Source: Sedimentisphaerales bacterium (GTDB lineage: Bacteria > Planctomycetota > Phycisphaerae > Sedimentisphaerales > Anaerobacaceae). From it: a stretch of 42,878 bases of DNA. The stretch lies in the NCBI GenBank assembly GCA_016934255.1, contig JAFGTG010000533.1, positions 1 through 42,878 on the forward strand. The letters run 5' to 3'. Below the pieces are notes generated by a model that did not search any database, was not told the origin of the DNA, and saw only the letters and a program-made list of their open reading frames with translations. The first letter of the stretch is position 1; the number at the start of each line of letters is the position of its first letter. Shown in pieces: positions 12,353 to 15,932 of the stretch. The translations under genes and the position numbers were made by a program.

Positions 12353-13405
12353 TTATTTTCCCCGGAAAGTAGAAATCTTCCGTTTCAATTCTCGACATGC
12401 CCCCGCCGGATCGTCAGCACCGGTGACGGCCGAGCAAACGGCAATACTTCTCGCCCCGGCCTCCAGCACCTGATCCACATTTTCCGATGTTATGCCCCCA
12501 ATAGCAACATGGCCTATCCCATGGCGCTCCAGCATTTGAACGGCTTGTTTCACATAGCCCAGTCCGACCGCCGGGGCGCTCGGCTTTGTGTCCGTCGCAA
12601 AGACGGGACCTAATCCCACATAGGTGGGCTGCTCGTCACAGGCGGCCCGAAGTTGTTCGAGCGAATGCGTACTCTTTCCGACAATTAACGGAGCCAGCTC
12701 GAGCTTTCGGGCTTGTGCAACGGGCAAATCGGTCTGACCCAGGTGTACCCCATCGGCCCCCGCGGCTACAGCGATATCCGTCCGGTCGTTGATAATACTC
12801 ACAACCCCGGCTTCTCTACATAGTCTTACAAATTCCACCGCAAGGGCAAAGAGCGTATCATCGTCAACGGTCTTCGCCCGAATCTGGATACAATCGGCCC
12901 CGCCGGCAATACACTTATTTGCTAAAAAGAGAACTTCCGTCGGTAGAACACTGGTTATAACGATATACAACTGCACCTTCTTAAACTTTTGCGCCGTATT
13001 GCTTTGGAGAACAATATCCTTTTCAAGCGTATAGGACGTGTATCTGAGTTCCTCTATCTTCTCAGCATCCGGCTGGTTCTGAATCCTCAGGGCCTCCGCA
13101 AGCACCCGCAATGCTTCACTAAGACGTTTGCAGGCGGCCGTACAACAATCGAATAAATCGCTTCTCGAAAGCTGATGGTCCACTTTCTGCCCGACGCCGA
13201 CGTCACCGAGCGTATCCCTGCTCGAAATGAGTCTTGCCGCGTCGAGCGAACCGATGCAACCAGAGAGTTCATGCCGAATCTGCTTTGCCCGTCCGGCCAG
13301 ACTCTCCGAATTTAAGGCGAACCTGCAAAATTCCTCAATCGTCCGGATCGCCTCGCGCGCCCGATTAAAGTTGGCGTCGATTATCCTGTAAACTGGCCGT
13401 TCCAT
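12353..13405 (-). CDS. ThiD2-ThiE fusion: thiamine-phosphate synthase with N-terminal HMP-P kinase-like domain
   Basis: Residues about 1-125 match the ThiD2 domain (RIIDANFNRAREAIRTIEEFCRFAL), which is known as a monofunctional HMP-phosphate kinase. Residues about 145-345 are ThiE, which joins HMP-PP to thiazole phosphate to give thiamine phosphate. ThiE motifs are GADCIQIRAK, INDRTDIAVAAGADGVHLGQTDLP in parts, YVGLGPVFATDTKP and HVAIGGIT. The fusion would supply HMP-PP directly to the synthase. The ATG at 13405 lacks a good Shine-Dalgarno. A TATAAT on the minus strand (13421-13416) would start transcription only a few bases upstream, so a leaderless mRNA is possible. I found no TPP riboswitch signature upstream. 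The next gene starts 1 nt after the stop. Confidence 0.93.
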   Translation of the reverse strand: MERPVYRIIDANFNRAREAIRTIEEFCRFALNSESLAGRAKQIRHELSGCIGSLDAARLISSRDTLGDVGVGQKVDHQLSRSDLFDCCTAACKRLSEALRVLAEALRIQNQPDAEKIEELRYTSYTLEKDIVLQSNTAQKFKKVQLYIVITSVLPTEVLFLANKCIAGGADCIQIRAKTVDDDTLFALAVEFVRLCREAGVVSIINDRTDIAVAAGADGVHLGQTDLPVAQARKLELAPLIVGKSTHSLEQLRAACDEQPTYVGLGPVFATDTKPSAPAVGLGYVKQAVQMLERHGIGHVAIGGITSENVDQVLEAGARSIAVCSAVTGADDPAGACRELKRKISTFRGK

Positions 13406-13507
13406 ATCGTCGCCTATTATATAAATCAGGGCCAGTTTATAATACTGATAATGTGAAAAAGTGAGGTGTTAAAATTTCGGATTTTATGAACTATCGGCGC
13501 ATAAAAT

Positions 13508-13640
13508 ATGGAGTCGCCCCTCCTCCGGAACGACTCCATGGCACAAAATTTATCAACTCAGAGCCGGGGTCTCCGCCTCTGCGAGACTCAAAATCGGGCG
13601 GACATGTCCTCCTCCGTTAACATGTTTAGGCCGTCCGCCC
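13508..13640. ncRNA. Candidate structured RNA: three hairpins, two with CCTCCTCC loops
   Basis: Three hairpins stand in a row in a gene-free stretch. Hairpin 1 pairs ATGGAGTCG (13508-13516) with CGACTCCAT (13531-13539), 9 perfect pairs, loop CCCCTCCTCCGGAA. Hairpin 2 pairs GTCTC (13569-13573) with GAGAC (13583-13587), loop CGCCTCTGC. Hairpin 3 pairs GGGCGGAC (13596-13603) with GTCCGCCC (13633-13640), extended by ATGT/ACAT, loop CCTCCTCCGTTA. On the plus strand the loops would display anti-Shine-Dalgarno CCUCCUCC. On the minus strand, which leads into thiE, they would display GGAGGAGG. The transcribed strand is not known. Confidence 0.4.
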
Positions 13641-13955
13641 AATATCGTTGCCTCAAAAGGACGAAGAAGTATAGGCTGCAAGAAATATACCAGATAAACA
13701 ATAATCACGGGGGATAGGACTTTTAAAGGAATCTAAATCTCATATTTACAGAAACTTACAAGCATATCCTCCCTCACAATCAACAAGATGAGCACATATC
13801 ACTTTCTAACAGCATGTTTATTTTAATAAACACAAAAAGACAAGAAACACCCCAATTAACCTATACATCCTATTTTATTTCATTTCGCTTGTAAATAGGT
13901 TTGTATGTTTACAAAAAACAACGTGTACAAAAAATAGAAGGATGCCGGAAGAATA
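13641..13955. other. AT-rich intergenic region
   Basis: I see no gene. Near the end of the LTA-synthase-like gene, TTGTAAA (13889-13895) and TTTACAA (13908-13914) form an inverted repeat. On the minus strand a run of T residues follows the stop codon region and may contribute to termination. Confidence 0.4.
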
Positions 13956-15932
13956 TCATTTGTGCGACTCCTTTATATACTTTGAGTAGGAGATGCGATT
14001 GGTCCAACCGCAAAGCCAGCTATCGTATAGCATTTTTTTGCCCGTTCTTTCCTGATTGATACGAATAATCGTCCCCTTACGCCATGACGCGATCTCTTCC
14101 GCGGCCTTCATGATCTGTTCGGTCGGCAACTCAATCCCAACCCTTTCGAGCGGGTCTTTCTCAAGATCATAGACACTGATTGTCTTGCTCACCGGATTAT
14201 GTATAAACTTTCGATGACCTTCCACGAAACCGGCGGGTCCTTCCTGCATCCACCCACTAAAATAAACCCTTCGTTCTCCCGAACCCGGCGCTAAAACATT
14301 AACGCCATCAAAACCTGCAGATTCCGTCTTAAAACCTAATAAGCTCAACAACGTCGGCGTCAGATCGATAGAGCTCACGAGTCGGGATTCCTTCCTCCCA
14401 GCCTCGACAAGGAACGGCGCCCTGATGCAGAACGGGATCCGTAGGGCCTCGTCGAAAGCTATGCGCTCGTGTCCGAGCAAACCATGCTCTCCGAACGCTT
14501 CCCCATGATCGCCAACGACGCAAAAAATCGTCTCTTGAGCTATGTTCAATTGGGTCATCTCCACATCCAAGGCGGCCAGGAATTTATCCGTATAGAAAAT
14601 CGCCTGCCTATATCGATCCAGAAGCTCTTCCGGCACCCCGCCAAACCACTCTGGAACTTCGTATGGATCGTGCGTTACCGAGCAAAGAACGACGAGTAAA
14701 AACGGCCGTTCGTCAGCTTGTATCCATTCTTTGATGGGTTCAAGCATCGTAAATTCATCACAGCCGAGATAACCGAGGTGGCTGTTGGGATCATTCAAAT
14801 CGTCCCGCGCCCAAAATTTATCAAAACCAAGATTGCACACCAATCCCGGCCTGGACTCGAAACTCCCCGCCGCCGACTGGAAAAAAGCCGTTCGGTAATT
14901 CAGCGCATCGTTCAGCTCCGTCGCCAAGCTGGCATAAGGCTTCTTTGCGGGCACGGTTTCCGCGATATCCTGAGACGCAGAGGCGAATCGTCCAGTCAGT
15001 AAAGCAAAAAGGGCCTTCGTCGTATGAGTCAGAGAAGAACGGGCATTCGTAAACTCAACCCCCTGGCTGGCCAAACTTTCCAAATAAGGCGTTAAATGGC
15101 ACGTCTCGTCTGAAAGCGACGTATATTGATATTGAACGCCCTCAAGAATAACGAGAACCACGTTTGGTTTCATACGCGAGGTTCTCGCCGTCATGACCAC
15201 CTGATCGTGCGAAGGGATATGGCGCTTCGGATCGACAACCGTTCGGTAGTCCGGTAAGACAAGGCTCATCAAGGCCCTTAATTGAGAATTATCATGCAAA
15301 CCCACGGCGGTAATTTGAGGAGAGCCCCGCCGGGCGAGCGCTGGACGAGCCGCGATTGAAACAAGAACGAGGGCAAAACATATTAACACCCTGAGAAGAA
15401 AGCGTCGCCGGTCGTAAGACGGCAAAGAAGGACGCGCTAAGGCAAAAAAGAAAAATGCCAAAGCGGCTGCGCTTGGGACGAGAAGAATCGCGGCCATGAG
15501 CGGCATCTTGACAAGATTAACACCGATCATATAAAAAGCACTCACTGGATCGCGAAATAAAGGGAGAAGAACTCTCGGTAGTATCTGTGTCCCCGTTCTG
15601 ATTAACCAGCCGGCGTTCATCACGGACCACGTGCAAATGACCGCGGCGGTAATCATTGCGGTGCGCATAAGCCACTTTTTGGGCCAACGAAAACATGCGA
15701 GCGATAACACGGCCTCGATAACCAGGAAGAAAGAAACGTCGGAAAGAATCCAGCCAACGTATTCGTTGGTCAGGTCATTACGTTTCGAGTGATAAAGTTT
15801 GACGCCAAGCGTACAAAACAATGCGCCAAAAAGAATGACGCTGTGAGCGCGCGGGATAAGAAACTCGCGTAAATAGCGAGCTAATATGGCTTGTTCAGGT
15901 TTGGAGCCGGACTTTGAACATTGAAAATCCAT
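13956..15932 (-). CDS. LTA-synthase-like membrane sulfatase/phosphoglycerol transferase
   Basis: This 658-residue protein has five or so membrane helices in residues 30-195 and then an extracytoplasmic sulfatase-fold domain (about 255-560). Family hallmarks are NVVLVILEG (Glu264, metal ligand), the Thr-rich nucleophile region LTHTTKAL (about Thr304/305) in place of a CxPxR cysteine, and VVGDHGEAFGEHG (Asp475, His476) with a later LGH. Members of the LtaS/MdoB group transfer glycerol phosphate or phosphoethanolamine to lipids or glycans. Planctomycetes are not known for lipoteichoic acid, so the acceptor is more likely a glycan or lipid A-like molecule. No Shine-Dalgarno precedes the ATG, and the best promoter ends 8 nt upstream. 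Confidence 0.85.
   Translation of the reverse strand: MDFQCSKSGSKPEQAILARYLREFLIPRAHSVILFGALFCTLGVKLYHSKRNDLTNEYVGWILSDVSFFLVIEAVLSLACFRWPKKWLMRTAMITAAVICTWSVMNAGWLIRTGTQILPRVLLPLFRDPVSAFYMIGVNLVKMPLMAAILLVPSAAALAFFFFALARPSLPSYDRRRFLLRVLICFALVLVSIAARPALARRGSPQITAVGLHDNSQLRALMSLVLPDYRTVVDPKRHIPSHDQVVMTARTSRMKPNVVLVILEGVQYQYTSLSDETCHLTPYLESLASQGVEFTNARSSLTHTTKALFALLTGRFASASQDIAETVPAKKPYASLATELNDALNYRTAFFQSAAGSFESRPGLVCNLGFDKFWARDDLNDPNSHLGYLGCDEFTMLEPIKEWIQADERPFLLVVLCSVTHDPYEVPEWFGGVPEELLDRYRQAIFYTDKFLAALDVEMTQLNIAQETIFCVVGDHGEAFGEHGLLGHERIAFDEALRIPFCIRAPFLVEAGRKESRLVSSIDLTPTLLSLLGFKTESAGFDGVNVLAPGSGERRVYFSGWMQEGPAGFVEGHRKFIHNPVSKTISVYDLEKDPLERVGIELPTEQIMKAAEEIASWRKGTIIRINQERTGKKMLYDSWLCGWTNRISYSKYIKESHK

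Follow-up and report, generated by a model that had tools for sequence, protein, structure and literature searches.

The region between a sulfatase-family gene and a thiE-type gene in a Sedimentisphaerales genome carries two hairpins whose stems differ and whose loops share a common core, which raises the question of whether these hairpins belong to a functional RNA, and if so on which strand it is read, what switches it on and what it binds. The window analysed here is the whole 42,878-nucleotide stretch of DNA that contains them. As the first-pass annotation had described, the plus strand carries CCTCCTCC twice, at 13519-13526 in the loop of a 9-bp stem, ATGGAGTCG/CGACTCCAT (13508-13539), and at 13608-13615 in the loop of the stem GGGCGGAC/GTCCGCCC (within 13593-13643). 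Counted on either strand, CCTCCTCC is present in five copies in the window against 1.38 expected, and because 2 of 100 shuffles also reach five copies the loop repeats alone are weak evidence. Folding of both strands, a check that the annotation had proposed, gave structures better than dinucleotide shuffles in each case, the minus strand (z -4.73) more so than the plus strand (z -3.07). The decisive evidence comes from conservation, and on this comparative ground the two-loop observation can be taken as confirmed.

Extent and parts of the element

The feature is larger than first described. Positions 13501-13666 of the minus strand appear to form an RNA of ~166 nt, with a 5' hairpin, a variable middle and a 3' terminator-like hairpin, and it is to this small regulatory RNA, uncatalogued so far, that the hairpins seem to belong. 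A covariance model, R1, matches 13501-13643 with an E value of 2.4e-28; the 166-nt length is predicted, as is the start at ~13666, which was set 12 nt beyond the -12 element of the promoter described below. The 5' hairpin, H3 (13593-13643, minus strand), consists of an outer stem, an inner CCU/AGG stem and an apical loop with GGAGG at its end, GGAGGAGG lying in its loop region at 13608-13615. The 3' hairpin, H1 (13508-13539, minus strand), resembles an intrinsic terminator by its fold and presents a GGAGGA hexaloop on CC/GG, with GGAGGAGG in the loop at 13519-13526. Between them the variable middle part (13540-13592, minus strand) corresponds in homologues to helix 3 of R1, the window's copy being atypical. 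Of the three hairpins originally proposed the two outer ones are conserved, and the middle one is a prediction with a variable sequence. A small open reading frame after GGAGGAGG in H3 was considered and rejected, the window's ATG not being kept among homologues when these were compared by eye.

Conservation in related genomes

When the 161-bp element was used as a DNA query, 66 of 99 genomes matched at E <=1, the window's genome included; many of these are chance matches, and the best ones cover both hairpins. R1, which was built from 20 homologues (alignment A1), matches 79 of the 89 genomes of the window's family at E <=0.01, its own genome among them, a covariance search of related genomes having been suggested at the outset. 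When a class-wide sample was searched with R1, 28 of 298 genomes matched, 23 of them belonging to the window's family; the matches in G096, G315 and G332 were discarded as chance, being found on inspection to be without the two GGAGGA loops. A model of the 5' hairpin only, R2, matches 66 of the 161 genomes of the order at E <=0.05, all 66 of them in the window's family, of which it therefore covers only 66 of 89 genomes, and across the phylum it matches two of 392 genomes at E <=0.01, namely the window and one marginal match in G424.

A pattern made of motifs only (TGGCA-N6-TTGC followed by GGAGGA and then GGAGGAGG, with prescribed distances between them) matches 24 class genomes out of 397; 19 of these are among the 43 of the window's family and 5 among the 11 of family f2, which belongs to the same order, the match in G091 of f2 being less convincing by eye. 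None was found in the remaining class genomes of the 397 searched, and reversed-pattern controls gave zero; the window itself is missed because its promoter reads TGGT. In G078, a member of f2, the RNA lies downstream of a sulfatase gene and its 5' stem differs, both GGAGGAGG blocks remaining. Of the 58 homologues with a strict promoter, 53 retain GGAGG in both loops, the selection of these homologues having been made with a model in which the motif is included. The stems change while the loops stay, as the annotation had claimed, and this is clearest in f2, where the motif-only pattern also finds the arrangement. In genus g45 none of the three genomes has an R1 match; two of the three (L123 and L124) have a sulfatase-thiE gap with a GGAGGAGG fragment and no recognisable RNA, the fragment possibly being a decayed copy.

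Double-sided changes are found at 32 of 32 modelled pairs. These changes amount to 353 cells, compared with 79 in shuffles and 60-79 after sliding of the pairing, and 93.3% of cells pair as opposed to 36-51% when slid, in an alignment (A2, 98 rows) that was fitted to the model and that includes six rows of weak extra or opposite-strand matches. As these six rows lie in loci that already have a better match, they were dropped to give the 92-row table used for later counts. RNAalifold applied to an unfitted MAFFT alignment of 20 sequences gives double-sided changes at 16 of 35 pairs. The outer stem of the 5' hairpin is commonly ATTGGGCGGAC/GTCCGCCCGAT, and the inner CCU/AGG stem of H3 shows compensatory changes, to ATTCT/AGAAT in L048 and to CUC/GAG in L055. 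For the terminator hairpin a GGAGGA hexaloop is predicted in 46 of 61 homologues, the hexaloop bases having a predicted average of 0.88-1.00 unpaired versus 0.39 over the whole RNA. The motif in H3 is predicted to be less open, with 0.45-0.71 unpaired for its first five bases, and its second AGG pairs with a conserved CCU.

The transcribed strand

The first-pass annotation offered two readings of the loops, a plus-strand RNA exposing an anti-Shine-Dalgarno sequence in the manner of the CcsR/cuckoo small RNAs, and a minus-strand RNA with GGAGGAGG as a CsrA-type site or ribosome decoy. The former has in its favour that CCTCCTCC sits in two plus-strand loops. The variation at paired positions points the other way. 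In the covariance-model alignment of the top 63 rows, which are the homologues scoring 50 bits or more, G.U cells number 238 and A/C cells, the ones that the opposite strand would read as G.U, number 26; this figure leans towards the minus strand since the alignment was fitted to a minus-strand model. In 55 of the same 63 homologues H1 is followed on the minus side by a T-rich stretch, and in four a T-rich stretch follows H3 when the plus strand is read, the last columns of the model taking in part of the T-rich tail. Within 13300-14000 the sole terminator-like site is on the minus strand at H1, with 0.8 expected by chance, and a weak scan of the same region found on the plus strand no terminator and no promoter-like site upstream of the element. 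By these strand tests CCUCCUCC, the loop sequence of the cuckoo/ar14 type, would not be in the loops of the transcribed strand. The strand evidence favours the minus strand, with which the second reading of the annotation agrees, and because of the pair variation and the side of the T-rich stretch we set aside the plus-strand anti-Shine-Dalgarno RNA, which is hardly credible.

A sigma-54-type promoter and paired upstream sites

Upstream of the predicted RNA is a sigma-54-type -24/-12 promoter, TGGTATATTTCTTGC (13678-13692, minus strand), that fits a strict pattern, TGG[CT][AG][CT]-N5-TTGC, which follows the published sigma-54 consensus. Of the 62 homologues that have at least 50 bits and 80 upstream bases, 58 carry such a site ahead of the 5' hairpin, and the fifth base of the promoter is A in 58 of 58. 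Its distance from the 5' hairpin is 24-42 nt, and 31-36 nt in 49 of the 58. The four homologues with no strict site are L053, which has a near match, L096, L062 and L097, the last being a copy at a Fur locus; amongst the weaker matches 5 of 29 have a strict site. The pattern occurs at 0.0003 per mononucleotide-shuffled 80-mer, both this pattern and that for the palindromes below having been written after the sequences were viewed.

Further upstream there are palindromes of the form GTGTTG-N8-CAACAC, two of them ~90 bp apart in the window and in homologues. The pattern [CT]GTT[GT]-N7-9-CAAC[AG] picks out a palindrome in 55 of the 57 homologues that score 60 bits or more, compared with 1.3% of mononucleotide shuffles, and 5 of the 33 homologues with lower scores have one too. 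Of the 57, 46 have a proximal palindrome (179-202 nt upstream of H3), 51 have a distal one (265-306 nt) and 42 have both. The distal palindrome of the window, ATGTTTACAAAAAACAACGT (13905-13924, no strand assigned), is a candidate site for an enhancer-binding protein, and the proximal one, ATGTTTATTTTAATAAACAC (13814-13833, no strand assigned), is degenerate, falls outside the pattern and was assigned by position and by eye. The pair is likely to be the site pair of an enhancer-binding protein, palindromes together with a -24/-12 site being the layout of an enhancer-activated sigma-54 promoter. In sequence terms the locus resembles that of a sigma-54-dependent small RNA, with a putative -24/-12 promoter at near-constant spacing and candidate activator sites upstream. 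Sigma-54 RNA polymerase would transcribe the ~166-nt RNA from the minus strand, an enhancer-binding protein at the upstream palindromes would activate the promoter, and transcription would end at the RNA's own intrinsic terminator; on comparative sequence evidence we hold these steps with high confidence. The whole would constitute a complete predicted regulatory unit of paired upstream sites, sigma-54 promoter, structured RNA and terminator; as a small RNA family in this lineage it would be a well-supported one.

Neighbouring genes and copies at Fur loci

Both neighbours of the RNA lie outside it. Downstream on the same strand is a gene encoding ThiD2 and TMP synthase domains (thiE-type; 12353-13405, minus strand; Pfam PF02581 and PF17792), for whose product the two named relatives found are from Isosphaeraceae at ~40% identity, and upstream is a gene for a sulfatase-family protein (13956-15932, minus strand; Pfam PF00884, in synteny). 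Of the 63 homologues with 50 bits or more, 46 have by tblastn a thiE gene downstream in the same orientation, at a median distance of 108 nt (range 37-648), 45 have the sulfatase upstream and 32 have both, never on the opposite strand; two of the 18 loci with no sulfatase have less than 260 bases of upstream sequence. In G045 there are two copies of the RNA with a sigma-54-type promoter (L092 and L095), each between a sulfatase gene and a thiE gene.

Such synteny would suit a cis-acting leader or attenuator of thiE, and the annotation had indeed placed the loops in the leader of thiE. This placement is made doubtful by the terminator-like end, with its T-rich stretch after H1 in 55 of 63, by the RNA's own sigma-54-type promoter, by the lack of any riboswitch match in Rfam and by the 17 of 63 loci at which thiE was not found, of which 13 have at least 1500 bases of downstream sequence and four have less than 400. 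Furthermore, a second set of homologous RNAs is found elsewhere, in L097 (2027-2189), L111 (2026-2186), L075 (1501-1654), L074, L102 and L069, and in all five of these paralogue loci that were tested the downstream gene on the same strand is of the Fur family (PF01475), the sequence of the sixth, L102, ending too early for this test. Since 13 sufficiently long loci are without thiE and the paralogues precede a Fur-family gene, it would seem improbable that the RNA is a thiE leader.

The six Fur-type paralogues have no strict sigma-54 site. By eye, the ACTACTATATAGTAGT palindrome is upstream of two of the six and related CTATAT sequences are upstream of all six, and GGAGG is kept in the terminator loop and absent from the 5' loop. 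A model built from the six, R3, also recovers the sigma-54 copies, the window's at an E value of 1.8e-5, and finds a seventh such copy, G050:C10 (L163), with a downstream reading frame that is Fur-like by motif. The copy at the Fur locus is possibly peroxide- or metal-responsive.

CsrA as the candidate target

The loop regions of the 5' hairpin and of the terminator hairpin would each show GGAGGA. With the sigma-54 signal on, the RNA would accumulate and act in trans, sequestering a dimeric GGA-binding translational regulator, for which CsrA is the candidate, with the release of CsrA-bound mRNAs. Such sequestration is the most likely function of a trans-acting RNA of this kind, and is a step that we infer and would put just short of even odds, because the high-affinity ANGGA context is not conserved. 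The best explanation of the whole is a sigma-54-switched trans-acting decoy RNA for CsrA, to which we give a probability of about 0.5.

A CsrA protein (PF02599) is encoded in 75 of the 89 genomes of the window's family, the window's own included, and the Arg of the (H/Y)R motif, which we take to be the equivalent of E. coli Arg44, is kept in all 18 CsrA copies inspected. PMC4005645 describes decoy small RNAs as typically having GGA motifs in hairpin loops, and gives the high-affinity CsrA site as an ANGGAX hexaloop, A(N)GGAX loops that lack the N still being bound. As in such decoys, the GGA motifs here are exposed in hairpin loops of the predicted fold, and AGGAG within GGAGGAGG fits the looser A(N)GGAX form. 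The high-affinity form is not the conserved one: in H1 the first GGA comes after CC in 18 of 20 homologues, and in H3 only 17 of 55 homologues have ANGGA, A occupying at least one of the two positions ahead of GGA in 27 of 55. The RNA has two GGA clusters only, where RsmZ has eight GGA motifs (PMC4005645).

The imperfect match to the high-affinity site, together with the occurrence of the same loop on different stems in families f1 and f2, would also suit an RNA that serves as decoy or scaffold for some other GGA-binding protein, as yet unrecognised, an explanation that we consider distinctly unlikely, as the presence of CsrA in 75 of 89 genomes means that no new protein is needed.

Co-occurrence of the RNA and csrA is weak, and is confounded by the completeness of the metagenome-assembled genomes: 69 genomes have both, 10 the RNA only, 6 csrA only and 4 neither (p 0.047), the same counts for the 32 best genomes being 28, 1, 2 and 1 (p 0.18). 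In genus g45 csrA is found in two of three genomes, one of these being a partial match, yet the RNA is matched in none of the three. The csrA leaders were also inspected as carriers of the RNA's own hairpin, and as GGAGGA was seen by eye within the upstream 220 bases of one of 18 copies (L133) there is no general pattern of this kind. Immediately before the start codon 15 of the 18 csrA copies (among L116-L118 and L130-L144) have AAAAGGA, and in many leaders a GCCGAAATATA-like stretch is seen by eye further upstream; these shared sequences could reflect autoregulation. The second csrA of G010 (L141) has CCTCCTCC, the complement of the RNA's loops, ~190 nt upstream, a single case among the 18 inspected.

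That last case would be in keeping with an RNA whose GGAGGAGG loops pair with CU-rich stretches and not with a protein, whether as a base-pairing small RNA or as a mimic of the Shine-Dalgarno sequence, the possible partners being anti-Shine-Dalgarno helices in mRNA leaders, a CCUCC-type small RNA or 16S 3' ends. Pairing of this kind would also account for GGAGG, the core of the Shine-Dalgarno sequence, being better kept than ANGGA. The extended complement of the anti-Shine-Dalgarno sequence is AAGGAGGU, from which the loop motif differs, and a mimic would presumably need very high levels of RNA to titrate 30S subunits. The RNA does mirror the ar14/NfeR1 RNAs as these are described in PMC10746234, but a dimeric protein would be served at least equally well by two identical loops. 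We regard base pairing as an unlikely alternative, if one deserving serious attention.

Returning to the CsrA decoy, with less confidence it may be proposed that there is a new Csr-like layer, made up of a sigma-54- and enhancer-switched family of GGAGGA decoys and, in a few genomes, a differently regulated copy at the Fur locus, whereby two signals would feed one global post-transcriptional regulator. If true, this would be a new Csr-like layer in a lineage where searches turned up no such RNA, and the testable question that it raises is whether CsrA is controlled by a decoy RNA whose switch is wired to sigma-54.

Comparison with known systems

In the window there is no match at gathering score to any Rfam 15 family, and 18 related loci gave a tRNA only. 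Nor was there a match of the CsrB/RsmZ type, the region 13400-13960 giving two implausible weak matches with E values up to 5, and no account of such an RNA was found in the literature, judged by title and the start of the abstract among the matches listed. We call the RNA a new small RNA family, related in type to known kinds.

Qrr of Vibrio and CrcZ of Pseudomonas are sigma-54-dependent small RNAs, and with these the family shares a predicted sigma-54 promoter and candidate upstream activator sites that would drive a terminated small RNA; we know of no resemblance to them in sequence or structure, the tool comparison being the Rfam scan. In PMC10746234 the ar14/NfeR1 (cuckoo) RNAs of alphaproteobacteria are described as having three hairpins with an identical CCUCCUCCC and differing stems, and thus share with the window's RNA an identical loop motif on hairpins whose stems differ. 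The motif is the complementary one here, GGAGGAGG as opposed to their CCUCCUCCC, and would therefore have other pairing partners, and the lineage is another one. From the CsrB/RsmZ-type RNAs the family differs in having only two GGAGGA loops, no preference for ANGGA, a sigma-54-type promoter and no Rfam match, CsrA binding being a prediction here. What it shares with these is that it is predicted to be short and terminator-ended and to present GGA in hairpin loops, in a family in which 75 of 89 genomes encode CsrA.
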